Source: Burkholderiales bacterium PBB1
GTDB taxonomy: Bacteria > Pseudomonadota > Gammaproteobacteria > Burkholderiales > Burkholderiaceae_C
Assembly: GCA_002255905.1 (NCBI GenBank)
Contig: NKIN01000001.1
Location: 868,001-932,000 of the forward strand
DNA: 64,000 nucleotides
Direction of reading: 5' to 3'
A model generated the notes under the pieces. That model worked only from the letters and a program-made list of their open reading frames with translations. It was not told the DNA's origin and did no database searches. A program made the position numbers and the translations under genes. Shown piece by piece: positions 25,442 to 55,170 of the stretch (positions are counted from its first letter, which is position 1; every line of letters begins with the position of its first letter).

Positions 25442-26749
25442 TCACGACAACATGGGCTCGGCTGCTTCCGGCCTGGCAAGGGGCAACCGGGCTGCTCCCC
25501 GCGCCTCGATCTGCTCGGCGATGTAGTGGGCATCGCGGGCCACGCCGGAGAACCGGCCCGAGCCCCAGGTGTGCAGCCACGGCAGTCCCAGAAAGTACAC
25601 GCCCGCCTGCGCGGTGACACCGCGCACATGGCCCGGCTGGCCGCGCCCGTTGAACACCGGCACGTCCAGCCAGCCGAAGTCGGGCTGGAAGCCGATGCAC
25701 CAGATCACGGAGGTGATGCCGGCGTCGCGCAGCTTGAGCCGGGTGCGCTCGGCTGGTGGTTCCCAGACCGGCGTGTAGACCGACGGCGGCGGCGCAATGA
25801 TGCCTGCCTTCTCGATGTACTTGTCGATCGACGCGTTGATGCCGTTGTAGATGCGATCGGCATGGTCGAGGTTGTGCCGCAGGTCGGGGTTGAAGAGCAG
25901 GGTGTCGTCTTCCAGGCCGATCAGCTGCCCGTACAGCTCCATGCCTTCGCGGGCGAACTGCCGCAGGTCGATGTCGCGACCGCCGTCGCGGCCGGTGACG
26001 AAATGGTTGGTGTTGTCGCGCACCCCTTCGCGCAGCGGGTGCTCGTGCACGCTCATGTCGTAGTAGCCCATGTCGGCCAGCCAGTCGACCACGTCCTTGC
26101 CACGGTAGAAGCGGGCGCAGCGTGGTGCGTCGCCGGTGGCCAGCACCACCTCCCGGCCCGCCAGGTGCAGGTCCTCGGCCAGTTGCGAGCCCGACTGCCC
26201 ATTGCCGACCACCAGCACCTTGCCCGGTGGCAGCGCGCCGGGGTTGCGGTACTGCTCGGAATGGATCTGCAGCACCGAGGCTGGCAGCCGCTCGGCCAGC
26301 CGCGGGATGATGGGTTGGTGGTAGCCGCCGGAGGCCACGACGATCTGATCAGCGGTGTAGTGGTCCTGCGAGGTGGCAATGTCGAAGCCGCTGTTGTCGA
26401 ACCCTCCGCGGCCAAACCCGCTGCGGCGCGAAACGCGCTGCACCGTGACGCCGCTGCGCACTGGTGCGTCGACGTGCTTCACGAAGCCGTCCAGGTACGC
26501 GATGATTTCATCGCGCTTCATGAAGCCGTGGGGGTCGTCACCGCGGTACTCCCAGCCCGGCAGCTTGCATTGCCAGTTCGGCGTGACGAGGCAAAACGTG
26601 TCCCAGCGCTGGGTGCGCCAGGTGTGCACCGGCGAGCGCTTTTCGAGCACCAGGTGATCGATGCCGCGCTGCTTCAGGAAGTAGCTGAGCGACAGGCCGG
26701 CCTGACCGGCACCGACGATGACGACGCTGTGGTGTTCAGGGGTGGACAT
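25442..26749 (-). CDS. nitH: MSMEG_0569-family flavin-dependent monooxygenase (NitH)
   Basis: This 435-residue oxidoreductase starts with an FAD site VVIVGAGQAGLSLSYFL and has a second Rossmann site for NADPH, VLVVGNGQSGSQLAEDL. The arrangement is that of class B flavin monooxygenases, which N- or S-oxygenate small substrates or do Baeyer-Villiger chemistry. Further family features are RTQRWDTFCLVTPNWQCKLP and a C-terminal GLPWLHTWGSGRFSGVARDA. It is the last gene of the Nit1C-type cluster, 32 bp after the small MSMEG_0570-like gene. Its substrate is unknown; a nitrogen-containing intermediate is an inference. Confidence 0.9.
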   Translation of the reverse strand: MSTPEHHSVVIVGAGQAGLSLSYFLKQRGIDHLVLEKRSPVHTWRTQRWDTFCLVTPNWQCKLPGWEYRGDDPHGFMKRDEIIAYLDGFVKHVDAPVRSGVTVQRVSRRSGFGRGGFDNSGFDIATSQDHYTADQIVVASGGYHQPIIPRLAERLPASVLQIHSEQYRNPGALPPGKVLVVGNGQSGSQLAEDLHLAGREVVLATGDAPRCARFYRGKDVVDWLADMGYYDMSVHEHPLREGVRDNTNHFVTGRDGGRDIDLRQFAREGMELYGQLIGLEDDTLLFNPDLRHNLDHADRIYNGINASIDKYIEKAGIIAPPPSVYTPVWEPPAERTRLKLRDAGITSVIWCIGFQPDFGWLDVPVFNGRGQPGHVRGVTAQAGVYFLGLPWLHTWGSGRFSGVARDAHYIAEQIEARGAARLPLARPEAAEPMLS

Positions 26750-26781
26750 GGGATCTCCTTGCGCGCACGGATGCCGCGCGG

Positions 26782-27069
26782 TCAGTCTTCAAAGGCGACC
26801 ACCTCGACCTGCGCATCGGCTTGCGCAGCGAAGCGGGTGGCGGTGTGTTCGATGCGGTCCAGCTGATCCATCGCCTGTGAGCACGCGAAGCCGTACTTGG
26901 CCCGCACCCGCTCCGAGGCGATGTTCAGCGCCTCGCGCACCTGCGTCATGAACACGGGCAGCGGGTAGGTGCGGCCGGGCTGGAAATAGTCCTTGATGAC
27001 CAGCGACGGCGAGTAACAGCGCGCCACGCTGCCGTCGGGCCAGCGCAGCTGGAAGTGCATGGCGGGCAT
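26782..27069 (-). CDS. nitG: MSMEG_0570-family nitrogen starvation response protein (NitG)
   Basis: This 95-residue protein is recognisable by MHFQLRWPDGSVARCYSPSL, YFQPGRTYPLPVFMTQVREAL and SERVRAKYGFACSQA. It has no signal peptide or membrane helix and no motif of known chemistry, apart from two conserved-looking cysteines in ARCYSP and FACSQA. Its constant presence in clusters with a nitrilase and a radical SAM enzyme suggests an accessory or carrier role. The role is unknown. Confidence 0.85.
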   Translation of the reverse strand: MPAMHFQLRWPDGSVARCYSPSLVIKDYFQPGRTYPLPVFMTQVREALNIASERVRAKYGFACSQAMDQLDRIEHTATRFAAQADAQVEVVAFED

Positions 27070-27096
27070 GGGTGGTCTCCGTTGTCCAGTGAGCGA

Positions 27097-28335
27097 TCAG
27101 GCCCGCAGCGCTGCGCAATGCTGCGTACGTGCTGCGTGGGTTCGGTACAGCGCCACATGCCGTGCCGCGCTGGCGCTCCAGCTGTGGCGCAGGCAGACCT
27201 CGGGCGTGTGATCTGCCAATGCGGCCGCGCGGTCGGGGGCCAAGGCGCGGTGTATCGCATCGGCCATCGATTGCACGTCATGCGGGTCGCACCAGCAGCA
27301 GTCGGCATCGCTCAGGTGCTCGGTGAACGGCGCGATGGCCGAGACCACCGTCGGTGTGCCGCAGGCCAGCGCCTCCAGCACCACCAGACCGAAGCCCTCG
27401 CACAGCGACGGCATGGCCAGCACATCGGCTGCTCGGTAGAGCGCTGGCATCTGGTCATCGGGTACGGTGCCTGTGAGCACGATGTCCTTGTCGGGTCCGA
27501 TCGTGAGGCCACTGTCGGCTATCCGCGCGATGAACTCGGCCACGCAAGCGTCGTGGTTCAGCAGGCTGGCACCACCGGCGATCACCCATTGCGCGTTCGG
27601 CCGCCGTGCGCGCAGTGCGATGAACGCGTCCAGCAGCCGCACGGTGTTCTTGCGTGCCTCGATGCCCCCAACCGAGATCAGCACCGGTGCATCGACGCCG
27701 CCGCGCAGGCCGTAGCGCGCGACGGTCCGCGCATCGCTGGCGTCGCGGTGCGGTGTGTAGCGCCGGTAGTCCACGCCGTTGTGCACCAGCGCGGCGTCGA
27801 TGCCGTGGTCGCGCCGCAGCACGTCACGCCACAGCTGACTCACACACAGCACCTGGCTGGCCGCTTCGAAGCCGCGCCGCTGGCGCACCATCAGGCGCGG
27901 GTCGTCGAACGTGTCGAGGTGGTGAACTGTTCGAACGAAGCCTTCGATCAACCCTCGATCGCGCATCGTGGCCAAGGCATTGGCGCCGATCGGATCCTGC
28001 GCGTGAAGCACATCGAAATCCCGGTGTGCGAGCAGGCGTTCCAGGTGCCGCTCGAAGGCATGGATGCGTGTGCTGACCGCGCCGAACAGATCCCCTGCCG
28101 CAGTCACCTCCGCAGCGGGGTGGACGGGCAGCAGGTTCAGCTCGCAGCGGACCGGTCGGAACATCGCCTGGCCGGGCAGCGCGGGGGCCATCACGGTGAC
28201 CGCATGGCCTGCGTCGTGCAGCGCATGCGCCAATTCCAGCGTGTGCACCACGCCGCCACGTGGGTTCACCGAGTGGGTCAGGATGCCCACGCGCAAGGGC
28301 CGACCCAGTGCCGTCGCGGCTCGTTGCTCAGGCAT
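27097..28335 (-). CDS. MSMEG_0565-family GT4 glycosyltransferase
   Basis: This 412-residue protein has the two-Rossmann GT-B build. The N-terminal part begins LRVGILTHSVNPRGGVVHTLELAHAL and holds FDVLHAQDPIGANAL; the C-terminal donor domain has LISVGGIEARKN and the E-x7-E-type motif SLCEGFGLVVLEALACGTPTVVS. It should transfer a sugar from an activated donor. Its start overlaps the AIR-synthase gene by eight bases. Its presence suggests that the product of the cluster is glycosylated, which is an inference. Confidence 0.88.
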   Translation of the reverse strand: MPEQRAATALGRPLRVGILTHSVNPRGGVVHTLELAHALHDAGHAVTVMAPALPGQAMFRPVRCELNLLPVHPAAEVTAAGDLFGAVSTRIHAFERHLERLLAHRDFDVLHAQDPIGANALATMRDRGLIEGFVRTVHHLDTFDDPRLMVRQRRGFEAASQVLCVSQLWRDVLRRDHGIDAALVHNGVDYRRYTPHRDASDARTVARYGLRGGVDAPVLISVGGIEARKNTVRLLDAFIALRARRPNAQWVIAGGASLLNHDACVAEFIARIADSGLTIGPDKDIVLTGTVPDDQMPALYRAADVLAMPSLCEGFGLVVLEALACGTPTVVSAIAPFTEHLSDADCCWCDPHDVQSMADAIHRALAPDRAAALADHTPEVCLRHSWSASAARHVALYRTHAARTQHCAALRA

Positions 28336-29359
28336 GTACCGCCTCCGCGGTGCGTTGCGGCAGGATCAGGGCCTGTGTCGACACATCCCACAACATCGAG
28401 GTCTGTTCGCCGCGGCGCAAGCGCACCCGAGGGTCGAGCGTGACGGTGCCGACGACCGCGTTGGCGATGCCGCGCGAGGCAAATCGTTGCCGCACCGCGT
28501 CGACCCGCTCCGGCCGCACGCTGAGCACGAAGCCATAGCTGGGGAACGCCTGTAGCCAGCGCAGCAGGGGCGTCCGGGCCTCGGGGCGCGGTATCGCGTC
28601 GATGTCGATCACTGCGCCCACTCGGGAGCATTCGAGCAGCATCAGCGTGGTGCCGATCGCGCCGGCCATGCTGATGTCCTTCGCGGCATCGCACAGACCG
28701 TCTTCGGCCAGCCCCGGCAGCACCTCCAGATCGGCGCGCAGCCGCTCGGCAGGTGCGTCGGTCGACGCGTTCCAGTAAGGATGCGGCTCGACGTAGGCAC
28801 CGCGCAGATCGATCGCCATCACCAACTGGTCACCCGGCCGCGCATTGAAGCTGGTGAGCAGCTTGTTGGCGCGGCCGATGATGGCCACCGCCAGCTGCCC
28901 GTGGGCGCTCTGGTGGTTGGTGTGCCCGCCGACGATCGGCACGCCGTAGCGCGCCGACGCCGTACTCAGTCCGTCGAGCAACGGCTGCGACGTCTCGTTG
29001 CCGCGACTCCACAGTGCGTCGACCACTGCGATCGGCCGTCCGCCCATCGCGTAGATGTCGCTCACGTTGACCATCACACCACAGTAGCCAGCGAACCACG
29101 GCAGGCGGGCGACGAAGTCCTCGACGAACCCCTCGATCGCGAACAGCAGGTAGCCGTCCCCGTCCGCCATGGCGGCACAGTCGTCGCCGATCGGCACCGC
29201 ACCCGGCGCAGCGCCTCCCGCTGTCGGGAGTGCCCGCTGCAGTGCGCCGACCACCTCCGAAATGTCGCGCTTGTGGGCCAGACCGCGGCCGCGCAGCAAG
29301 GCAGCGGTGAGGTCCTCCAGCGGCAGCTCGCTGTCCACGGGCAGGGGTGCGCTCGTCAT
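28328..29359 (-). CDS. nitF: Sll0787-family AIR synthase-like (PurM fold) protein (NitF)
   Basis: The 343-residue protein has the PurM/ThiL/SelD fold signatures: AVPIGDDCAAMADGDGYL, VMVNVSDIYAMGGRPIAVVDAL, VPIVGGHTNHQ and the second-domain AKDISMAGAIGTTLMLLE. Family members use ATP to activate an amide or carboxyl oxygen for ring closure or phosphorylation. The chosen ATG at 29359 overlaps the acetyltransferase stop by four bases (ATGA), which fixes the start. The ligand in this cluster is not known to me. Confidence 0.9.
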   Translation of the reverse strand: MTSAPLPVDSELPLEDLTAALLRGRGLAHKRDISEVVGALQRALPTAGGAAPGAVPIGDDCAAMADGDGYLLFAIEGFVEDFVARLPWFAGYCGVMVNVSDIYAMGGRPIAVVDALWSRGNETSQPLLDGLSTASARYGVPIVGGHTNHQSAHGQLAVAIIGRANKLLTSFNARPGDQLVMAIDLRGAYVEPHPYWNASTDAPAERLRADLEVLPGLAEDGLCDAAKDISMAGAIGTTLMLLECSRVGAVIDIDAIPRPEARTPLLRWLQAFPSYGFVLSVRPERVDAVRQRFASRGIANAVVGTVTLDPRVRLRRGEQTSMLWDVSTQALILPQRTAEAVHA

Positions 29360-29949
29360 GCCGCGCTCGTGGCTGCTGCCATGCTTCGGGGGATGCCCTG
29401 TGTGGAGTAGCCCCACAGGGGATCGTGGCAGGGCGGGTAGTGCGCCAGGTCGGCCTGCATCAGCGCGTGGGGCCGACCGTGCAGCGTCTCTTCTTTCAGC
29501 AGCTGCCAGTGCAGGCGGCGGAACAGCGGCACGTTCTGGCCTTGCACATGTGCAAGGAACACGCGCGCGCCGCGCGCATGCGCGCTCGACACCGCGAGCC
29601 GGATCAAGGTGGCACCCAACTTGCCCTGCTGCCGGAAGGCCGGGTGCACCGCCAGCCGCGAGCCCCACCACAGCCCGGGCTCGTCGCCGTCCGGATTCGT
29701 GTGGATGCGCACCGTGCCCACCACCTGGTCGGGCTGACCGCAGACCTGCGATACCGCGACCAGCGGCTGCGCATGGGCGTCGATGGCATCGGTGTCGTCT
29801 CCCGCGAAGACGCCTTGTTCCACACAGAACACAGCACGCCGCAGCTTGCGTGCCTCTTCCCGCTCCCATCGCCCTTCGGCCCATTTGACGCGGTATTCGC
29901 AGGGCACGAAGGCCGGTGTGTCCTCGCAGATGCGGTCCAGTGTGAGCAT
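29356..29949 (-). CDS. nitE: MSMEG_0567/Sll0786-family GNAT N-acetyltransferase (NitE)
   Basis: This 197-residue protein has a GNAT core with the acetyl-CoA loop region LAVHPAFRQQGKLGATLIRLA and a family-specific start (FVPCEYRVKWAEGRWEREEARKL in part) and KLRRAVFCVEQGVF. The C-terminal HGRPHALMQADLAHYPP is also characteristic. It would acylate an amine on a small molecule. It is coupled to the AIR-synthase gene by a four-base overlap and follows the radical SAM gene by 15 bp. Confidence 0.88.
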   Translation of the reverse strand: MLTLDRICEDTPAFVPCEYRVKWAEGRWEREEARKLRRAVFCVEQGVFAGDDTDAIDAHAQPLVAVSQVCGQPDQVVGTVRIHTNPDGDEPGLWWGSRLAVHPAFRQQGKLGATLIRLAVSSAHARGARVFLAHVQGQNVPLFRRLHWQLLKEETLHGRPHALMQADLAHYPPCHDPLWGYSTQGIPRSMAAATSAA

Positions 29950-29964
29950 GGTGGTGGTCTCCTT

Positions 29965-31116
29965 TCAGGCGGCTGCGGTCTCGTACACCGACAGCGACGA
30001 GCACGCACCGCACTTGCCGCAGCCCGCCTTGATGTCGCCCGAGCGCAGGCCCGCGGTCGACACCATGGCGCCCAGCCGTTCCAGCAGCGGCTTCATGAAG
30101 TCCGAAGGAGGCGCTGGGTGATCTTCGAGCGGCGTGCCGCTGATCGGTACGAACGGCACGACGAATGGGTAGACGCCGAGCGCGAGCAACTGCTCCGACA
30201 TGGCCAGGATCGCTTCCGGCGTGTCGCCCAGACCCGCCAGGATGTAGGTGCTGACCTGTCCGCGGCCGAAGACCTTGACCGACGCTTCGAAGGCCTGCAG
30301 GTAGCGCTCGATCGGCACGCTGGCCTTGCCGGGCATCACGCGCTCGCGCACTTCGGGCGTGACCGCCTCCAGGTGCATGCCCAACGTGTCGATGCCGGCA
30401 TCGCGCAGGCGTTCGAACCAGATGTCGTCGTTCGGTGGCTCGCACTGCGCCTGCAGTGGCAGGTCGACTGCGGCCCTGATCGCGCGCGCGCTGTCGCACA
30501 GCACCGCGGCGCCGCGGTCGGTGGCGTTCGGTGTGCCGGTGGTCATCACCATGTGCTTCACGCCGTCGAGCCGCACTGCGGCAGCGGCCACCTCGGCGAG
30601 CTGCTCGGGTGTCTTGTGCGCGATCGTGCGGCCCGCCGCCAGCGACTGGCCGATTGCGCAGAACTTGCAGGTCTTCCTGCGACTCTCGTAGCGGATGCAG
30701 TTCTGCAGCACGGTGGTGGCCAGCACGTCCGAGCCGTGCAGCGTCGCGATGTGCGAGTACGGAACGCCATCGGCCGTGCTCAGTTCGTAGAAGCGGGGGG
30801 ACTTCGGGAATTCGATGCTGGCGATCGGGATCGTGCCGCGCGTCAGGGCGCTGCGGCCCTGTGCATCGGGCGGCTGTGCGACGAATGGCGACGACCAGGC
30901 GCTCGAGGTATGCACCGGCACCATGATCGTGTGTCCATCGACCGTGACGGCCTTGTGATCGGAGGGGCCGGCACCGCCCTTGCGGCTGGCGACGCCGCCA
31001 TTCACCGCACTCGGGTCGGCCAGGCGCAGGCCGAACGATTGCAGTTCGGTCATCAGCTGGCGGCTGGCCTCAGAAGGTGCGCCGCGCTGCGGTTCGAGTG
31101 AGGGTGTCAGGCCCAT
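29965..31116 (-). CDS. nitD: MSMEG_0568-family radical SAM enzyme (NitD)
   Basis: The 383-residue protein is related to the biotin synthase branch. The cluster-binding region reads [18 protein letters not shown], with Cys140, Cys150 and Cys153, a CX9CX2C spacing instead of the textbook CX3CX2C. Glycine-rich SAM contacts appear as [12 protein letters not shown] and [14 protein letters not shown]. The C-terminus has a second cysteine group, [10 protein letters not shown], that could hold another Fe-S cluster. The ATG at 31116 overlaps the nitrilase stop by ten bases. It is probably the key chemistry step of the cluster; substrate unknown. Confidence 0.9.
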
Positions 31117-32135
31117 GGCGCACCTTTGCTTGGAGAACGCGGGTTCAGGCTGTCCGCCCAGAGCGAGGGCTGGTCGTCGGCGTCCGCGGCCGGCACCGGG
31201 TTCATCGAACGCATCGGCGATACCGGCTGGTCGTTGATCAGCAGGCTCAGCAGTTCGGGTCGCGCGTAGTGCCCGACCGAATCCATCATCCGCTTGCGCT
31301 TGGCGATCAGGCTCATGTCGAGGTCGGCGATGACGAAGCCTTCGCCTTCGGTCAACGGCAGGCACAGATCCTTGCCCTCGGGCGACACGATGGCGGTGTG
31401 GCAGCCGCCGCGCAGGGCCTTCTGCAGGCCGATGTCGGGCGTGATCGACGCGATTTGCGCGTCCGTGAGCCAGCCGGTGGCGTTGATGACGAAGCAACCC
31501 GATTCCAGCGCGTGGTGGCGGATCGTCACCGCCATCTGGTCGGCGAACACCTGGCCGACCATCGAGCCCGGAAACTGCGCGCAGTGAATCTGCTCGTGCT
31601 GCGCCATCAGCGCATAGCGAGCCAGCGGGTTGTAGTGCTCCCAGCAGGCCAGCGCGCCGATGCGCCCCACGGCGCTGTCGACCACCTTCAGCCCGGCACC
31701 GTCGCCCTGGCCCCAGACCATGCGCTCGTGATAGGTCGGCGTGATCTTGCGGCGCTTCAGGATCAGCGAGCCATCGGCATCGAACACCAGCTGCGTGTTG
31801 TAGAGGCTGCCGTGGTCGCGCTCGTTGACACCCAGCACCACCACGATGCCGCGGGCGCGGGCACGGTCCGCCACCGCCTGCGTGACCGGGCCGGGCACTG
31901 CCACCGCATGTTCCATCAGCCGCAGATGGGGTGCACCCTGCAACACGGGCGGCAGCACGAACGAGAAGTATGGGTAGTACGGAACGAAGGTTTCCGGAAA
32001 GACCACCAGCTGCGCGCCCTTGTCGGCCACCTCGTCGATGGCGCCCAGCACGCGCTCGAGCGTGCCGGCGGGCCGCTCGAGGTCGGGTGCGATCTGGACG
32101 GCCGCTGCGCGGACGATGGAAGGCGCGCTGCTCAT
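31107..32135 (-). CDS. nitC: Nit6803-family nitrilase (NitC)
   Basis: The 342-residue enzyme carries the full catalytic set: Glu48 in VVFPETF, Lys130 in [16 protein letters not shown] with Glu137, and the nucleophile Cys164 in [11 protein letters not shown]. These residues and the motif CWEHYNPL mark true nitrilases (nitrile to acid plus ammonia) rather than amidases. The closest known types are Synechocystis Nit6803 and the NitC of Nit1C clusters, the latter linked by published work to growth on cyanide in Pseudomonas fluorescens. It lies 21 bp after the Sll0783-like gene. Confidence 0.93.
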
Positions 32136-32156
32136 GGTGCTGGCTTGCTCGTCGAC

Positions 32157-32639
32157 TCAGAGCGTCCAGGTGTTCAGGATGAAGGCGTTGGCCTTGCGGT
32201 GCAGCAAGATGATGTCCAGCACGTCCAGCGGATTGATCGGGCGCACGCCTTCGATCAACGCGCCTTCACCGTGGCCATACAGCGCCTGCAGCGCGAAGCG
32301 GCAGGCGTAGACCTTGCCGCCCTCGGCCATGAACTTGGTCAGCGTGTTGTTGAAGTTGCCATGGCCCGGAAAGGCCTCGTCGCCCAGCTTCGGAAAGCCA
32401 CGTTGCACGCCCAGCGTGACACCCGGGCCGTACAGCAGGATCGAGGTCTCGAAGCCCTTGCGCTGCAGGCGGGTGGCTTGCAGCATGTTGACGAAGCCGA
32501 TCGAGCCCTCGAAGGCGACAGTGTGGAAGGTGACGAGCGCTTTCTCGCCTGGTTCGGCTTTGACGTCTTCGAAGACCTTCTCTTCGTAGTCGACAAGGAA
32601 ATCGCCCTTGATGTTGGCGGGCTTGGTGACTTTGGGCAT
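32157..32639 (-). CDS. nitB: MSMEG_0572/Sll0783-family nitrogen starvation protein (NitB)
   Basis: This 160-residue protein is the first gene of the cluster. It is recognised by [22 protein letters not shown]-type text around residues 14-35, [39 protein letters not shown] and [14 protein letters not shown]. It looks like a DsrE-type fold but has no proven activity. In Synechocystis the homologue Sll0783 is induced by nitrogen starvation and its loss affects polyhydroxybutyrate storage. GGAGAA six bases upstream supports the ATG at 32639, with the predicted sigma-54 transcript starting about 42 bases before it. Confidence 0.9.
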
Positions 32640-32663
32640 GGCGTTCTCCGCGGGTTGGATGCA

Positions 32664-32678
32664 GCGCAACCGTTGCGC
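32664..32678. repeat. Inverted repeat in the nitB leader
   Basis: GCGCAAC and GTTGCGC face each other with one base between. The element covers about +4 to +18 of the predicted nitB transcript. It could be a protein operator or a small RNA hairpin. Confidence 0.5.
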
Positions 32679-32691
32679 GCACCGGACCCAG

Positions 32692-32707
32692 TGCATGGGA
32701 CGTGCCA
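32692..32707 (-). promoter_or_regulatory. Sigma-54 promoter for the Nit1C cluster
   Basis: Read on the minus strand, the bases are TGGCACG, TCCC, ATGCA. The -24 element matches the TGGCACG consensus fully. The GG and GC dinucleotides are exactly ten bases apart, and the -12 element differs from TTGCW at its first base only. The predicted start is near 32681, about 42 bases before the nitB ATG. Sigma-54 control fits a nitrogen starvation cluster. Confidence 0.75.
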
Positions 32708-32829
32708 TCAGCCAGGGTGCTGCATGCAATCAACTCACCATCAAGTCAGCACGGTGCGCGTTGGCGGACGAAAGTTTTTTTCGACGCGTCGTTGCGCCTT
32801 CGATAACCGGCCGCCACGGTGGATCGCAT

Positions 32830-32846
32830 CGCACCAACCAGGGGCT
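32830..32846 (+). promoter_or_regulatory. NtrC-like enhancer site
   Basis: The sequence CGCACCAACCAGGGGCT matches 10 of 14 positions of the NtrC palindrome TGCACCA-N3-TGGTGCA. It lies about 123 bp upstream of the nitB -24 box and about 83 bp upstream of the mocR one, good distances for an enhancer serving both promoters. Confidence 0.5.
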
Positions 32847-32928
32847 GATGCCTGCGATCAATGCCTCCGATCAACGAGCCGGAATGCACCGGTCGCGGGC
32901 AGATTGGTCGCCACCGAACGGGCCAGGG

Positions 32929-32944
32929 TGGCACGGAGGATGCG
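32929..32944 (+). promoter_or_regulatory. Sigma-54 promoter match for mocR
   Basis: TGGCACG, GAGG, ATGCG: the -24 box is perfect, GG and GC are ten bases apart, and the -12 box shares the A-for-T change seen in the nitB promoter. The predicted start near 32955 lies 29 bases before the mocR ATG. An ATCAA word overlaps the start region. Confidence 0.6.
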
Positions 32945-32983
32945 ATCAAGTTTTCCCATGTCCTGCCATCAACTGCCGCTGCG

Positions 32984-34375
32984 ATGAACAAGCCGACCAG
33001 CCACTGGCTGCGACGCCTGCAGTCGAGCGGCCAGCCCGCCTACCTGCAGATTGCCGACCTGATCGCCGAGGACCTGCGCACCGGTCGTCTCGCCGCCCGC
33101 GACCGGCTGCCCACGCTGCGCGAACTGGCCAGCGAGCTCGGGCTGAACTACACCACCGTGGCACGCGCTTACGCCGAGGCGCGCAAGCGGGGCCTGATCA
33201 CCTCGCGCCCGGGCATGGGCACCACGGTGCGTGGTACCGCACCCGCGCAGCCATTGCGCGGCGGCAGCGCGGCCGAGATGACGATGAACCTGCCGCCCGA
33301 GCCGCAAGACGCGGCACTCCTCGCCCGCATGCGAGACAGCGCCGCCGAGGTGCTGGCCCATGCCGACCTCAATGCGCTGCTGCGCTACCAGGACTTTGGC
33401 GGCAGCCCCGAAGACAAGGCCGCAGCGGTGCACTGGCTGCGGCCGCTGCTGCCCGGTTGCGTTGCGTCTCGCGTGCTGGTCAGCCCCGGTATCCACAGCG
33501 TGCTGGCGGCCTTGGTGTCACAACTGGCGCGGCCGGGCGAGCTGATCTGCGTGGAAGCCTTGACCTACCCTGGCTTGAAGGCGATCGCCACCCAGCTCGG
33601 GGTGGTCCTGCACGCACTGCCACTGGATGACGAAGGTCCCAGTGCCGCAGCCTTCGAGCAGGCGTGCAAGACACTGAAGCCGAAGGCGCTCTACTGCAAC
33701 CCGACCATGTTGAATCCGACGACGCTGACCGTGAGCCGGTCGCGCCGCGAAGCGCTGGCCGATGTTGCGTTGCGCTACAGCATCCCGATCGTCGAGGACG
33801 ACGCCTATGGGATGTTGCCGCGCGCTGCCTCGCTCCCGTTTGCGATGTTGGCGCCCGATCTGACGTATTACATCAGCGGCCTCAGCAAATGCCTGGGCGC
33901 CGGGCTGCGCACGGCCTTCGTCTGCTCGCCCAACGAACGGCAATCGCAGCGGCTGGCTGGCGCGTTGCGCGCGACCACGGTGATGGCCTCGCCCATCACC
34001 AATGCGGTGGCCACGCGTTGGATCACCGATGGCACCGCCGATGCGGTGCTTCAGTTCATCCGCACCGAGTCCGCCGCACGGCAGGCGCTGGCCGCGCGCC
34101 ATCTGGCGCATCACGACATCCAGGCACAGGCCGAGGCCTTCCACCTCTGGCTGCCGGTCGCGTCGACCTGGGGTGTGGTCGAGTTTGCGTCGTTCCTGCG
34201 CAGCCAGGGTGTGGCGGTGGTGGCCGGCGCTGCCTTCTCGACCGATGGCGACCCGCCCGATGCCGTGCGCATCTGCCTGGGCGGCGCGCTGACCCGCGAC
34301 GACTGCGATGCCGCGCTGCGCCTGATCGCCGACACCCTGGATCACCCGCAGCATCCGCATGCGACGGTGATGTGA
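32984..34375 (+). CDS. MocR-type regulator (GntR winged helix fused to aminotransferase-like domain)
   Basis: The 463-residue protein has an N-terminal GntR winged helix (YLQIADLIAEDLRTGRLAARD and LRELASELGLNYTTVARAYA, residues 18-80) and a class I aminotransferase-like domain. The PLP region reads PIVEDDAYGML and YYISGLSKCLGAGLRTAFV, with the lysine in LSKCLGAG. Such proteins sense an amino compound that reacts with PLP. Its position, divergent from the Nit1C cluster, makes it the likely local regulator, an inference from context. I chose the ATG at 32984 since residues before it show no family similarity. Confidence 0.88.
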   Translation: MNKPTSHWLRRLQSSGQPAYLQIADLIAEDLRTGRLAARDRLPTLRELASELGLNYTTVARAYAEARKRGLITSRPGMGTTVRGTAPAQPLRGGSAAEMTMNLPPEPQDAALLARMRDSAAEVLAHADLNALLRYQDFGGSPEDKAAAVHWLRPLLPGCVASRVLVSPGIHSVLAALVSQLARPGELICVEALTYPGLKAIATQLGVVLHALPLDDEGPSAAAFEQACKTLKPKALYCNPTMLNPTTLTVSRSRREALADVALRYSIPIVEDDAYGMLPRAASLPFAMLAPDLTYYISGLSKCLGAGLRTAFVCSPNERQSQRLAGALRATTVMASPITNAVATRWITDGTADAVLQFIRTESAARQALAARHLAHHDIQAQAEAFHLWLPVASTWGVVEFASFLRSQGVAVVAGAAFSTDGDPPDAVRICLGGALTRDDCDAALRLIADTLDHPQHPHATVM

Positions 34376-34392: not shown

Positions 34393-36501
34393 TCAGCGCG
34401 TGGGTGCTGACCGCAGGAGTTGATCCAGCACCTGCGCCAGTTCGCCGCGCTGCAGCGGCTTGGCCAGCACACGGGTCACGCCGACCGCGGTGGCGCGAGC
34501 CGCCAACTGGGGGCCGCCGTAGCCGCTGATGAGCAGCACGGGCAACTGCGGCGCAAAGCTGCGCAGGGCCTCGGTGAGCTGGGTGCCGGTCAGCGCGGGC
34601 ATCACCTCGTCGGTCAGCAGCGCGTCGTAGCGGCCCGGATCGCTGCGCAAGGCTTCGAGCGCAGCTTTCGGGTCGGTGTAGCCGATGGGTTCGTAGCCGA
34701 GTTCGGCCAGCAGTTCTTCGGCGAGTTCGACCAGGGCCGGTTCGTCGTCGACGATCATCAACGTCTGACCGCGGCCGGTCGGCGCCATGGCGGACACCGT
34801 CGTGTCGGGGGCCAGCGCATCGTGCGACTCGGGCAGGTACAGCGTGAAGCGCGCGCCGGCGCCGGGTGTGCTTTGCACGTCGATGGCGCCACCGAATTCG
34901 GACACGACGCCGTGGACCACCGCCAGGCCGAGACCGGTGCCGGCGTGCTCGCGGCGGGTGGTGAAGAACGGCTCGAACAAGTGGTCCATCACCTCGGCAG
35001 CGATGCCTGCGCCATCGTCGGCCACGCTCAGCGCGAGGTAGTCGCCGGGTTCGATCTGGCCGTGCGACACAGTTTGCACCTCACGAGCCGCATGGCGTGC
35101 GGTGGACACCGTCAGCGTGCCGCCATCGGGCATGGCCTGCATCGCATTCGTGCACAGGTTCATCACCGCTTCGAACACCTGTGTCGGGTCGCCGCGCAGC
35201 CGCACGCCGGGCGCCTCGAACCGGCTTTCCAGCACCACGCCATGACGTAGCGACGCGGCCAGCAGCCCCAGTACCTCATCGATGATGGGCTGCACCTCGA
35301 ACACGGTGGCACTGCGCGCGCCGCTGCGGCTGAACGACAGGATGCGTTCGACCAGGGATTTGCCCCGCAGCGCGGCGCGCAGCACCTGGTCGAGCTGACT
35401 GGCTTGCCGGCTCCCGTCGACCGCGCTCTGTCGCGCCATCTCGGCGTAGCCCAGCACGGCAGCCAGCACGTTGTTGAAGTCATGGGCGACGCCACCGGCC
35501 AGCGTGCCCAGGGATTCGAGCTTGTTGGTGCGCGAAAGCTGGGTCTGCAGAGCGGCCTGCGTGGCCTGCCGGCGCTGCTCGGCGCGCGCGATGCGGTGCG
35601 CGGCAGCCGCCAGTCCCGACAGCAGCAACAGCACGCCCGACGACGCGAGCCATGCCACATCGCGCCAGGGTTCGAGGGCCGCCTCCACATCGCGGGTCAG
35701 CACCAGCGTCAGCCCGAAGCGTGGCACGGTGCGCTCTGCAATCAGGCGCTCGCGGCCATCGCTCAGCAAGCGCACATCGTGGTGGCGTTCGGGACCGGGC
35801 GGCTGCAGCGTCTCGGCAACACCGAGCGAGGGCAGGTGCGACAACGATCCGGCCAACCGGACGCCATCGGCGCGAAACACCGCCATGCGCGCGTCGGCGG
35901 TCGGCGCAGCCTGGGAGAACGCACCACGCAAGGCCTCGACCGGGAGCGCTGCGATCAGCCAGCCGCCCAGTTCGCCCACATGATCGTTGTAGCGCACCGC
36001 CAACGCCACCGAGGGCTCGCCGTTGAGCATGTTCGGGAAGGGCAGGCTGAGCGCCGTGTCGGTGTCGCTGAGCGCAGGCAGCGCTGGCACGAAGCTGCTG
36101 GGGTTCGGTGCCAGTGCCGGGCTCGATGCGGCGAGGAGCCTGCCCTGCCGGTCGATCACCCACAACTGGCTGGCCAGCGGCAGTTTCAGATCGTGCGGGT
36201 AGCGCTTGCCGGCAAGTTCGCCAGTGGCAGGCAGAAGCTCCCCGATCCGAAGTTCCAGGCGCACCGCCTGCAGGCCGATCTCGACGCTCTCCAGCCCGCG
36301 ATCCAGTTCGTCGGCCAGTGCCAGCGACAGCACCGACAGCTCGCGCGCCTGGCTGGTCAGGGCTTCGCGGCGCAGGTGCCACAGGCTGGCGGCGGTGACG
36401 GTGATCAACGACAACGCGGCCAGGCCGGCAACGATCCAGATGCGGGGCAGGGCAGGGCGGCGAGGAAGGGTTTCAGTCATCGTTGAGCGGGTCATCGGCA
36501 T
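34393..36501 (-). CDS. Hybrid sensor histidine kinase
   Basis: This protein of about 702 residues has a first membrane helix (WIVAGLAALSLITVTAASLW), a periplasmic sensor region to about residue 280, and a second helix (WLASSGVLLLLSGLAAAAH). A kinase core with phospho-His in LAGGVAHDFNNVLAAVLGYAEM follows, then ATP-binding VADDGAGIAAEVMDHLFEPFFTT and GTGLGLAVVHGVV. It ends in a receiver domain (MIVDDEPAL; acceptor Asp in ALLTDEVMP; Lys in VLAKPL). GAGGG eight bases upstream supports the ATG at 36501. It is divergent from an OmpR-type regulator, a probable but unproven partner. Confidence 0.9.
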   Translation of the reverse strand: MPMTRSTMTETLPRRPALPRIWIVAGLAALSLITVTAASLWHLRREALTSQARELSVLSLALADELDRGLESVEIGLQAVRLELRIGELLPATGELAGKRYPHDLKLPLASQLWVIDRQGRLLAASSPALAPNPSSFVPALPALSDTDTALSLPFPNMLNGEPSVALAVRYNDHVGELGGWLIAALPVEALRGAFSQAAPTADARMAVFRADGVRLAGSLSHLPSLGVAETLQPPGPERHHDVRLLSDGRERLIAERTVPRFGLTLVLTRDVEAALEPWRDVAWLASSGVLLLLSGLAAAAHRIARAEQRRQATQAALQTQLSRTNKLESLGTLAGGVAHDFNNVLAAVLGYAEMARQSAVDGSRQASQLDQVLRAALRGKSLVERILSFSRSGARSATVFEVQPIIDEVLGLLAASLRHGVVLESRFEAPGVRLRGDPTQVFEAVMNLCTNAMQAMPDGGTLTVSTARHAAREVQTVSHGQIEPGDYLALSVADDGAGIAAEVMDHLFEPFFTTRREHAGTGLGLAVVHGVVSEFGGAIDVQSTPGAGARFTLYLPESHDALAPDTTVSAMAPTGRGQTLMIVDDEPALVELAEELLAELGYEPIGYTDPKAALEALRSDPGRYDALLTDEVMPALTGTQLTEALRSFAPQLPVLLISGYGGPQLAARATAVGVTRVLAKPLQRGELAQVLDQLLRSAPTR

Positions 36502-36611
36502 GGGCACGACCCTCTTGGGGCGTGGACCGCGGTGCGAGACAGGTATCTGGGGAGCGTTGCCGCGCTACGATCCTTGACGTTGCATGCCCCACGCAGCACA
36601 GCGCCGACTTC

Positions 36612-37343
36612 ATGACCACCCACACGGCTCCGCACATCCTCGTCATCGATGACGATCCCAGTATCCGCGATCTCGTGAGCGAGTACCTCACCGACAACGA
36701 GATGCGCGTCAGCGTCGGCGCGTCGGGCAAGGACCTGTTCGACGCGGTCGATCGCGAGGCGATCGACCTCGTGCTGCTGGACCTGAGGCTGCCGGGCGAA
36801 GATGGCATGCAGCTCGCGCGGCAGCTGCGCGAGCGCGCCACCGTGCCCATCGTGCTGCTGACCGGCCGCAACGAGGAGGCCGACCGGGTGATGGGCCTTG
36901 AGCTCGGCGCCGATGACTACGTGACCAAGCCATTCAGTCCGCGCGAGTTGCTGGCGCGCGTTCGCGCGGTGCTGCGCCGCTACCAGGTGCAGGCCACGCT
37001 GCCCGAGCGCGACAACACGCGACGAGCCTTCCGGTTTTCGGGCTGGGAGCTGAACCTGCGCACGCGGCGGCTGACCTCGCCTGCCGGTACCACGGTCGAT
37101 CTGTCGAACGGTGAATTGAGCCTGCTGACCGCGCTGTGCAGCGCGCCGCGCCGCGTGCTGTCGCGCGACCAGCTGCTGTCGATGTCGCGCCTGCACGAGG
37201 CCGAGGTCTACGACCGCACGATCGATGTGCAGATCCTCAGGCTGCGCCGCAAGATCGAACCCGACCCGGCCCGCCCGGTGATGATCGTCACCGAGCGTGG
37301 AGCCGGGTATCAGCTGGTCAGCGACGTCGAGACGCTGTACTGA
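36612..37343 (+). CDS. OmpR/PhoB-family response regulator
   Basis: The 243-residue protein has a receiver domain (acidic pocket VIDDDPSIRD, acceptor Asp in LVLLDLRLPGEDG, switch TGRNEEADRVMG, Lys in DYVTKPF) and a C-terminal winged helix (LSNGELSLLTALCSAPRRVLSRDQLL, DVQILRLRRKIEPDP, RGAGYQL). The C-terminus is close to that of OmpR/TctD-like regulators. The ATG at 36612 gives the standard N-terminus; the open frame upstream overlaps the kinase promoter region. Target genes are unknown. Confidence 0.93.
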   Translation: MTTHTAPHILVIDDDPSIRDLVSEYLTDNEMRVSVGASGKDLFDAVDREAIDLVLLDLRLPGEDGMQLARQLRERATVPIVLLTGRNEEADRVMGLELGADDYVTKPFSPRELLARVRAVLRRYQVQATLPERDNTRRAFRFSGWELNLRTRRLTSPAGTTVDLSNGELSLLTALCSAPRRVLSRDQLLSMSRLHEAEVYDRTIDVQILRLRRKIEPDPARPVMIVTERGAGYQLVSDVETLY

Positions 37344-55085: not shown

Positions 55086-55170
55086 GCCGACGTGGTGAAA
55101 TTGGTAGACACGCTATCTTGAGGGGGTAGTGGCGAAAGCTGTGCGAGTTCGAGTCTCGCCGTCGGCACCA
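55086..55170 (+). tRNA. tRNA-Leu (anticodon GAG)
   Basis: The acceptor arms GCCGACG and CGTCGGC pair fully and the CCA end is encoded. The anticodon stem CTATC/GGTAG holds the loop TTGAGGG, which gives anticodon GAG. A long variable arm and the T-arm GCGAGTTCGAGTCTCGC complete a class II tRNA. It reads CUC and CUU leucine codons. Placement after secG is also seen in E. coli (leuU). Confidence 0.96.

Follow-up and report, generated by a model that had tools for sequence, protein, structure and literature searches.

A complete Nit1C gene cluster in a Burkholderiales genome, with predicted control elements and a proposed biosynthetic role

A stretch of 64,000 nucleotides from Burkholderiales bacterium PBB1 (contig NKIN01000001.1, positions 868,001 to 932,000; hereafter the window, with positions counted from its first letter) was found to carry a complete Nit1C gene cluster, formed by eight intact genes on the minus strand (25442-32639) and opposed by a gene for a MocR-type regulator. 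Nit1C has been known since 2005, it occurs in several phyla and on plasmids, and the question of its product is 20 years old. Judged from its sequence, the cluster appears to be a betaproteobacterial Nit1C operon, complete and an ordinary member of this known and unexplained gene set. New here are a conserved predicted sigma-54 promoter upstream of Nit1C, candidate repeats of the TTGATYGCA type whose presence goes together with that of the MocR gene, and accessory genes beside the cluster in relatives which suggest an acyl-bearing small compound. The reading that we place first, with confidence about evenly balanced, is that Nit1C would be a biosynthetic pathway of nitrogen starvation with an acyl step.

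The gene cluster and its conservation

The initial annotation had described an eight-gene Nit1C cluster with a MocR regulator opposite, and this was confirmed: in profile searches all eight proteins exceeded the curated NCBIfam cut-offs of their own families, and the coordinates agreed. The starts of the AIR, radical SAM, Sll0783-like and MocR genes were set inside longer open reading frames (ORFs) of a mechanical list. The genes are the following:

25442-26749, minus strand: MSMEG_0569-family flavin monooxygenase (FMO, NitH); TIGR04046, 665 bits, cut-off 498
26782-27069, minus strand: MSMEG_0570-family small protein (NitG); TIGR04042, 137 bits, cut-off 80
27097-28335, minus strand: MSMEG_0565-family GT4 glycosyltransferase; TIGR04047, 475 bits, cut-off 260
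28328-29359, minus strand: Sll0787-family AIR-synthase-like PurM-fold protein (NitF); TIGR04049, 461 bits, cut-off 321
29356-29949, minus strand: MSMEG_0567/Sll0786-family GNAT acyltransferase (NitE); TIGR04045, 236 bits, cut-off 68
29965-31116, minus strand: MSMEG_0568-family radical SAM protein (NitD); TIGR04043, 598 bits, cut-off 304
31107-32135, minus strand: Nit6803-family nitrilase (NitC); TIGR04048, 580 bits, cut-off 503
32157-32639, minus strand: MSMEG_0572/Sll0783-family DsrE-like protein (NitB); TIGR04044, 285 bits, cut-off 110
32984-34375, plus strand: MocR-type regulator (GntR winged helix-turn-helix and aminotransferase-like domain that binds pyridoxal phosphate, PLP); Pfam GntR, Aminotran_1_2

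All seven families that define Nit1C (Sll0783-like, nitrilase, radical SAM, GNAT, AIR-like, MSMEG_0570-like and FMO) are present, in the one-strand order, with the FMO gene terminal and the glycosyltransferase optional, of the definition by Podar 2005 (PMC1199592; papers are cited by PMC number, each for the portion of text consulted). The arrangement of the window is not new, since that paper described in Burkholderia and Rubrivivax a variant with the same order, in which the glycosyltransferase stands between ORFs 5 and 6 and is flanked by the AIR-like gene and that of the small protein. In the portion consulted, PMC1199592 mentions no MocR gene for these two genera and reports that conserved factor-binding sites could not be identified upstream; the present analysis describes the former and adds a predicted sigma-54 site and repeats. 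The gaps from the end of the FMO gene to that of the Sll0783-like gene are 32, 27, -8, -4, 15, -10 and 21 bp, and considering that they are so tight (-10 to +32 bp), a single transcription unit is likely, as had been claimed, with the reservation that co-transcription is here an argument from sequence.

The comparison set consisted of the 80 best loci among at least 462 confirmed relatives, so the sample leans to near relatives; the short loci among them display part of the gene set only. The commonest arrangement was that of the window with a divergent MocR gene (32 loci), followed by the same order minus the glycosyltransferase (16 loci). The Sll0783-like, nitrilase, radical SAM, GNAT and AIR genes were all present in 63/63 loci with enough flank, a joint conservation far beyond chance, and the same loci held FMO in 62, the MSMEG_0570-like gene in 57, MocR in 52 and the glycosyltransferase in 41. 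Two of the six loci missing the MSMEG_0570-like gene have it fused, to the glycosyltransferase in L050 and to the FMO in L056, hinting that the small protein may work together with both enzymes. The fusion frames lie at L050:14024-15757 and L056:11931-13553. The other four loci are of Pseudanabaena, and the glycosyltransferase was likewise not found there. The claim that hydrolysis of cyanide would not need so many enzymes is in line with this conservation of the whole, as it is with the LnmK-like, AMP-ligase and mutase neighbours found elsewhere and described below.

Predicted control elements upstream of the cluster

The Sll0783-like and MocR genes are divergent and their starts are separated by 344 bp. 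The elements predicted in this region are the following:

32692-32707, minus strand: predicted sigma-54 promoter (-24/-12), TGGCACGTCCCATGCA, score 11 of 12, 53 nt ahead of the Sll0783-like start
32725-32733, minus strand: candidate MocR operator copy, TTGATTGCA
32853-32874, minus strand: candidate tandem MocR operator, TTGATCGGA-N4-TTGATCGCA
32941-32949, minus strand: candidate MocR operator copy, TTGATCGCA
32964-32972, minus strand: candidate MocR operator copy, TTGATGGCA

The GG-N10-GC pattern near -24/-12 of the first gene is that of a putative sigma-54-dependent operon. A score of at least 10 of 12 was reached in the 350-bp upstream pieces of 55/80 loci, with starts taken from the alignment, and in 2.6% of 8000 random pieces of the same loci used as control; 54 of the 55 sites are located 30-100 nt ahead of the start. 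Across 11 aligned upstream sequences, two of them identical, TGGCAC-N6-TGC was invariant. NtrC is encoded in the same genome (685 bits joined, cut-off 558.6).

The candidate operator motif, TTGAT[CTG]G[CG]A, was derived from an alignment that included 8 of the MocR loci. It was present upstream in 59/66 loci with a MocR gene, 47 of them with two or more copies, in 0/14 loci without MocR and in 193/8000 random pieces; when the 8 loci used for its derivation were left out, the count was 51/58. In five loci the MocR gene lies downstream of the cluster (L022, L024, L025, L035, L041), and the motif is still found upstream of the first gene. The tandem pattern had a single match in the whole source genome (3.25 Mb, 19 contigs).

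Some counts weigh against this part of our reading. The candidate operator is absent from 7/66 MocR loci, five of which bear alphaproteobacterial genus names (L033, L039, L058, L077, L086). Among ten plasmid loci, it was seen in 3/7 with MocR (Pantoea, Klebsiella, Loktanella) and in 0/3 without MocR, and the four plasmid loci with MocR that lack it are all alphaproteobacterial (Agrobacterium, Acetobacter, Novosphingobium, Sagittula). The 14 loci without MocR belong to other lineages (9 are cyanobacterial) and 13 of them have an upstream G+C content of at most 0.50; the contrast between loci with and without MocR is therefore confounded. The link between motif and regulator seems valid for beta- and gammaproteobacteria and not for most alphaproteobacteria.

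The regulator itself has the GntR winged helix-turn-helix and the aminotransferase domain with the PLP lysine expected of a MocR-type protein. Residues K302, N244, D272, Y275, R309 and R429 were invariant in an alignment of 67 sequences; their role in PLP binding is assumed from the fold. The best named family was EhuR, the MocR regulator of ectoine (NF052286), which was rejected at 383 bits against a cut-off of 480.

Accessory acyl genes in relatives and the proposed role

ORFs directly downstream of the cluster were taken mechanically in 65 testable loci. A gene for the LnmK-like Pnap_2097 family (TIGR04099) occupied this position in 16, the second commonest real family in 3; by phmmer, the count was 17/80 loci. 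The protein also exceeds the cut-off of the LnmK family, and a tyrosine kept in 18/18 aligned sequences coincides with the tyrosine of the LnmK structure that we take to be catalytic. LnmK, named methylmalonyl-CoA:ACP (acyl carrier protein) acyltransferase/decarboxylase in its PDB entry, is a methylmalonyl-ACP decarboxylase (PMC8666670). Among 300 genomes of the order, the own one included, two had a match above the cut-off of TIGR04099; both belong to the 12 genomes with TIGR04044, and in each the two genes are about 5.5 kb apart on the same strand. Behind Pnap_2097 there is a methylmalonyl-CoA mutase gene in 6 loci, of which three were profile-scanned (NF006944, 940-976 bits). Cupriavidus necator A5-1 (L067) has both the mutase and the LnmK-like gene. 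The decarboxylase would send flux from succinyl-CoA to propionyl, and this suggests that an acyl donor is being supplied. On plasmids of Acetobacter and Pantoea, the cluster is followed by genes for AMP-forming ligases, which resemble propionate- and acetate-CoA ligases most closely and score below the cut-offs of those families. A related AMP-binding gene also follows it in a Klebsiella plasmid; taken alone, such a ligase would fit breakdown equally well. The wording Pnap_2097 or TIGR04099 was not found among the matches listed in the literature search. From these genes a chemical prediction follows, namely a short acyl group, probably propionyl in some lineages.

In an actinobacterial version, carried by a plasmid of Rhodococcus, the set is kept although no nitrilase of the Nit6803 type accompanies it (scores of 38 and 34 bits against a cut-off of 503); this version differs also in the fusion of GNAT and AIR. 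A second carbon-nitrogen hydrolase of this plasmid (L119:16501-17331) has Asp in place of the Cys that the first has in the ICYD motif; considering that this Cys is presumably the catalytic one, the second protein looks like an inactive partner.

The mechanism that we propose starts with nitrogen limitation, under which NtrC would activate the sigma-54 promoter while the MocR protein, with an amine or amino-type compound as its ligand, would modulate this promoter by way of the TTGATYGCA repeats. The pathway enzymes would act inside the cell. The one cysteine of the DsrE-like protein would bear a persulfide or a group of that kind, and the core would be built by the BioB/LipS-like radical SAM protein and the ATP-using PurM-fold enzyme. 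A short acyl group would be transferred by the GNAT, and certain lineages would obtain it as propionyl from methylmalonyl-CoA mutase plus the LnmK-like decarboxylase, or from the AMP-forming ligase. The flavoprotein would then oxidise, the nitrilase would hydrolyse a nitrile intermediate and give back ammonium, and the glycosyltransferase would be optional tailoring. Cyanide assimilation by Pseudomonas may be the same nitrilase acting on cyanohydrins. The product and every catalytic step are proposed here, and in the open-licence literature searched no Nit1C product is named. A link of viridisamide to the cluster was considered and rejected, as the work listed under that name deals with cyanobactins.

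This reading is favoured by the conservation of the whole set, by the acyl-thioester genes, by the Rhodococcus set that lacks the Nit6803-type nitrilase and, for its control, by the sigma-54 site, the candidate operator and the NtrC of the same genome. It is favoured also by published phenotypes not tied to cyanide. In Synechocystis, sll0783-sll0787 comprises the same families and is induced by nitrogen starvation, and in the sll0783 mutant NADPH/NADP fails to rise (PMC3901256). The gpr cluster of M. smegmatis, MSMEG_0565-0572, after whose locus tags the matched families are named, is likewise induced by nitrogen starvation; it differs in being controlled by GlnR, and its deletion gives lower NADPH/NADP and sensitivity to peroxide (PMC6039565). 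These phenotypes would also be explained if Nit1C were a redox protection system, in which DsrE, flavin and PurM proteins keep NADPH high in nitrogen starvation, with no dedicated small-molecule product and the nitrilase as a side branch. We consider this quite unlikely, taking into account that the GNAT, the radical SAM protein, the nitrilase, the frequent glycosyltransferase and the acyl-supply genes of some relatives fit a pathway better.

The main rival to biosynthesis, placed second, is cyanide assimilation: Nit1C may be an operon that scavenges nitrogen from cyanide and nitriles, the nitrilase turning cyanohydrins or natural nitriles into acid and ammonium, the FMO making or removing the nitrile, the DsrE-like protein handling sulfur or cyanide toxicity, and the ligase or mutase recycling the acid. 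The Pseudomonas nit1C (nitBCDEFGH and NitA) has the seven core families in common with the window and a sigma-54-type regulator; it differs in that its gene list, in the portions consulted, is without glycosyltransferase and its regulator is the sigma-54 activator NitA (PMC11049912, PMC8567248). There growth on cyanide depends on nitC, P. pseudoalcaligenes mutated in NitC cannot assimilate this compound, and the levels of Nit1C proteins increase with cyanide residue and 3-cyanoalanine (PMC11049912, PMC8567248). Neither this need nor this induction would be expected if Nit1C were purely biosynthetic. The sigma-54 promoter of the window is also in line with scavenging. In a Loktanella plasmid (L133:16672-22347), a sigma-54 regulator gene, a CmpA/NrtA-type ABC transporter and a cyanase are directly beside Nit1C. 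The Pseudomonas and Loktanella data weigh against the biosynthetic reading, as do other observations. In the window, where ORFs were read by eye, neither Pnap_2097 nor AMP-ligase nor mutase genes are beside the cluster, and 49/65 testable loci are without Pnap_2097 directly downstream. The ligase and the mutase could also serve the breakdown of the acid released by the nitrilase. As to structures, the AlphaFold2 model obtained for the Sll0783-like protein was of too low a quality to be of use (mean pLDDT 55.8), probably because its alignment is 82-99% identical, and in a Foldseek search of the PDB with the MSMEG_0570-like model no structure reached E<=0.001, the best value being 0.37.

Against scavenging it may be said that a nitrilase does not need a block of five to eight genes such as is conserved across phyla, that the Rhodococcus version keeps the rest without a Nit6803-type nitrilase, that knockouts in two other phyla affect NADPH/NADP and peroxide tolerance, and that LnmK-type decarboxylases would be unexpected. 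The association of cynS with nit1C in Pseudomonas was not significant (PMC11049912). We regard scavenging as possible rather than probable. The counts for the control region do not bear on the choice between biosynthesis and cyanide use.

The nitrogen-starvation induction and cyanide use of relatives stated in the initial annotation are both in print (PMC3901256, PMC6039565, PMC11049912, PMC8567248), and PMC9716671 cites the cyanide, Synechocystis sll0783 and gpr literatures together. Its interpretation as a whole is partly supported. Of a pathway that builds and glycosylates a small nitrogen compound, the building is retained; the glycosyltransferase, optional as it is (41/63 loci), makes glycosylation a tailoring step at most. 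Crude clustering of flanking ORFs revealed no exporter at a fixed position beside the cluster, which leans to a product kept in the cell and away from a secreted natural product. The ORF clusters shared by at least 6 loci were mostly out-of-frame noise or lineage neighbours, and an apparent ABC transporter, recognised by eye in 12 loci, was scattered from -7 to +5 kb. As for the cyanide/nitrile alternative of the same annotation, the Pseudomonas data do support cyanide and nitrile assimilation by the nitrilase (PMC11049912, PMC8567248).

In its most specific form, which we hold to be doubtful, the biosynthetic proposal is that Nit1C makes a widespread and unrecognised intracellular redox compound, which would contain sulfur, have an N-acyl group (acetyl or propionyl) and be glycosylated in some cases, by means of the DsrE-like carrier, the BioB/LipS-like radical SAM protein, the PurM-fold ATPase and a nitrile intermediate; this compound would raise NADPH/NADP and peroxide tolerance under nitrogen starvation, and cyanide assimilation would be a by-use of the nitrilase. 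The promoter and candidate operator offer a concrete route to switch the operon on in culture and, together with the acyl prediction, make the function of Nit1C directly testable.

Individual proteins, distribution and neighbouring genes

The Sll0783-like protein has one cysteine, C113, invariant in 80/80 sequences. By profile comparison (hhalign) with 23 DsrE proteins, it has the DsrE fold (probability 93.1%, E 3.1e-7) with C113 on the DsrE active-site cysteine. The Pfam model of DsrE, PF02635, was matched weakly by 39/40 relatives (best E 4.8e-4), and the window protein stayed under its cut-off (14.8 bits vs 22.7). A search by sequence for a solved relative gave as top matches only chance ones to antibodies. 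The DsrE homology of the family is already in print (PMC3901256, PMC6039565).

The nitrilase is closely related to Nit6803 (PDB 3wuy, 521 bits), and the cysteine of its ACWEH motif, C164, is kept in 79/79 sequences, so that it has both the TIGR04048 score and the catalytic cysteine of the Nit6803 family. The best substrate of Nit6803 is fumaronitrile (PMC8955678). In the radical SAM protein, a CX9CX2C motif of unusual spacing (C140-x9-C150-x2-C153) is invariant, together with C225, in 79/79 sequences, and so is a C-terminal CX2CX2C (C366-x2-C369-x2-C372) in 77/77. The protein is weakly similar to the sulfur-inserting radical SAM enzymes LipS2 (44 bits, cut-off 270), BioB (22, cut-off 225) and LipA (21, cut-off 310), a resemblance only, and it had no significant match in the PDB. 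With FeeM, the Pfam model for N-acyl amino acid synthase, the GNAT scored 28.8 bits against a cut-off of 27. Outside its own families, the AIR-like protein was nearest to methanogenesis marker 2 (239 bits, cut-off 365), ThiL (79 bits) and SelD (47 bits). TIGR04044 also has matches in Methanosarcina acetivorans, of the control set; this match and the likeness to marker 2 make an old link to archaeal enzymes possible. In the MSMEG_0570-like protein, whose AlphaFold2 model was confident (pLDDT 93.1), C63 is present in 65/65 sequences and C18 in 59/65, and C61 of the FMO is invariant (69/69). The next-best family of the glycosyltransferase after TIGR04047 was MshA (84 bits). The MocR protein studied in P. 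pseudoalcaligenes represses the other cluster, cio/nit4 (PMC8567248). No MocR gene was found in 9 loci of the cyanobacterial Nit1C, a difference from the window to be read with the fact that one of them, L070, has <300 bp of upstream DNA.

With the own genome counted, TIGR04044 was above its cut-off in 7/40 near-relative genomes and in 12/300 genomes of the order. By tblastn the marker gene was found on 515/72,556 plasmid records, 374 of these from Klebsiella. The patchy distribution and the carriage on plasmids fit horizontal transfer. An IncFIB/IncHI1B plasmid of Klebsiella pneumoniae bears Nit1C with a MocR-type and an AMP-binding gene (L135:8234-17165). The metagenome-assembled genome Burkholderiales bacterium Ga0077547 (L011) is close to the source genome, its Sll0783-like protein being 99% identical, and identity of the window protein to that of Pseudanabaena (e.g., L063) is 86%, which is very high across two phyla. 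One genome of the same genus (G007) has two copies of the marker gene, at C7:11145-11621 and C146:5959-6435 (285 and 271 bits).

An Rfam scan of the window gave a tRNA at 55086-55167 as sole match, and the scan for terminators and sigma-70 promoters gave nothing useful. Reading the ORFs by eye, the cluster is adjoined by an apparent hybrid sensor kinase that includes a receiver domain (34393-36507, minus strand), and divergent from it there is an apparent OmpR-type response regulator (about 36612-37343, plus strand).

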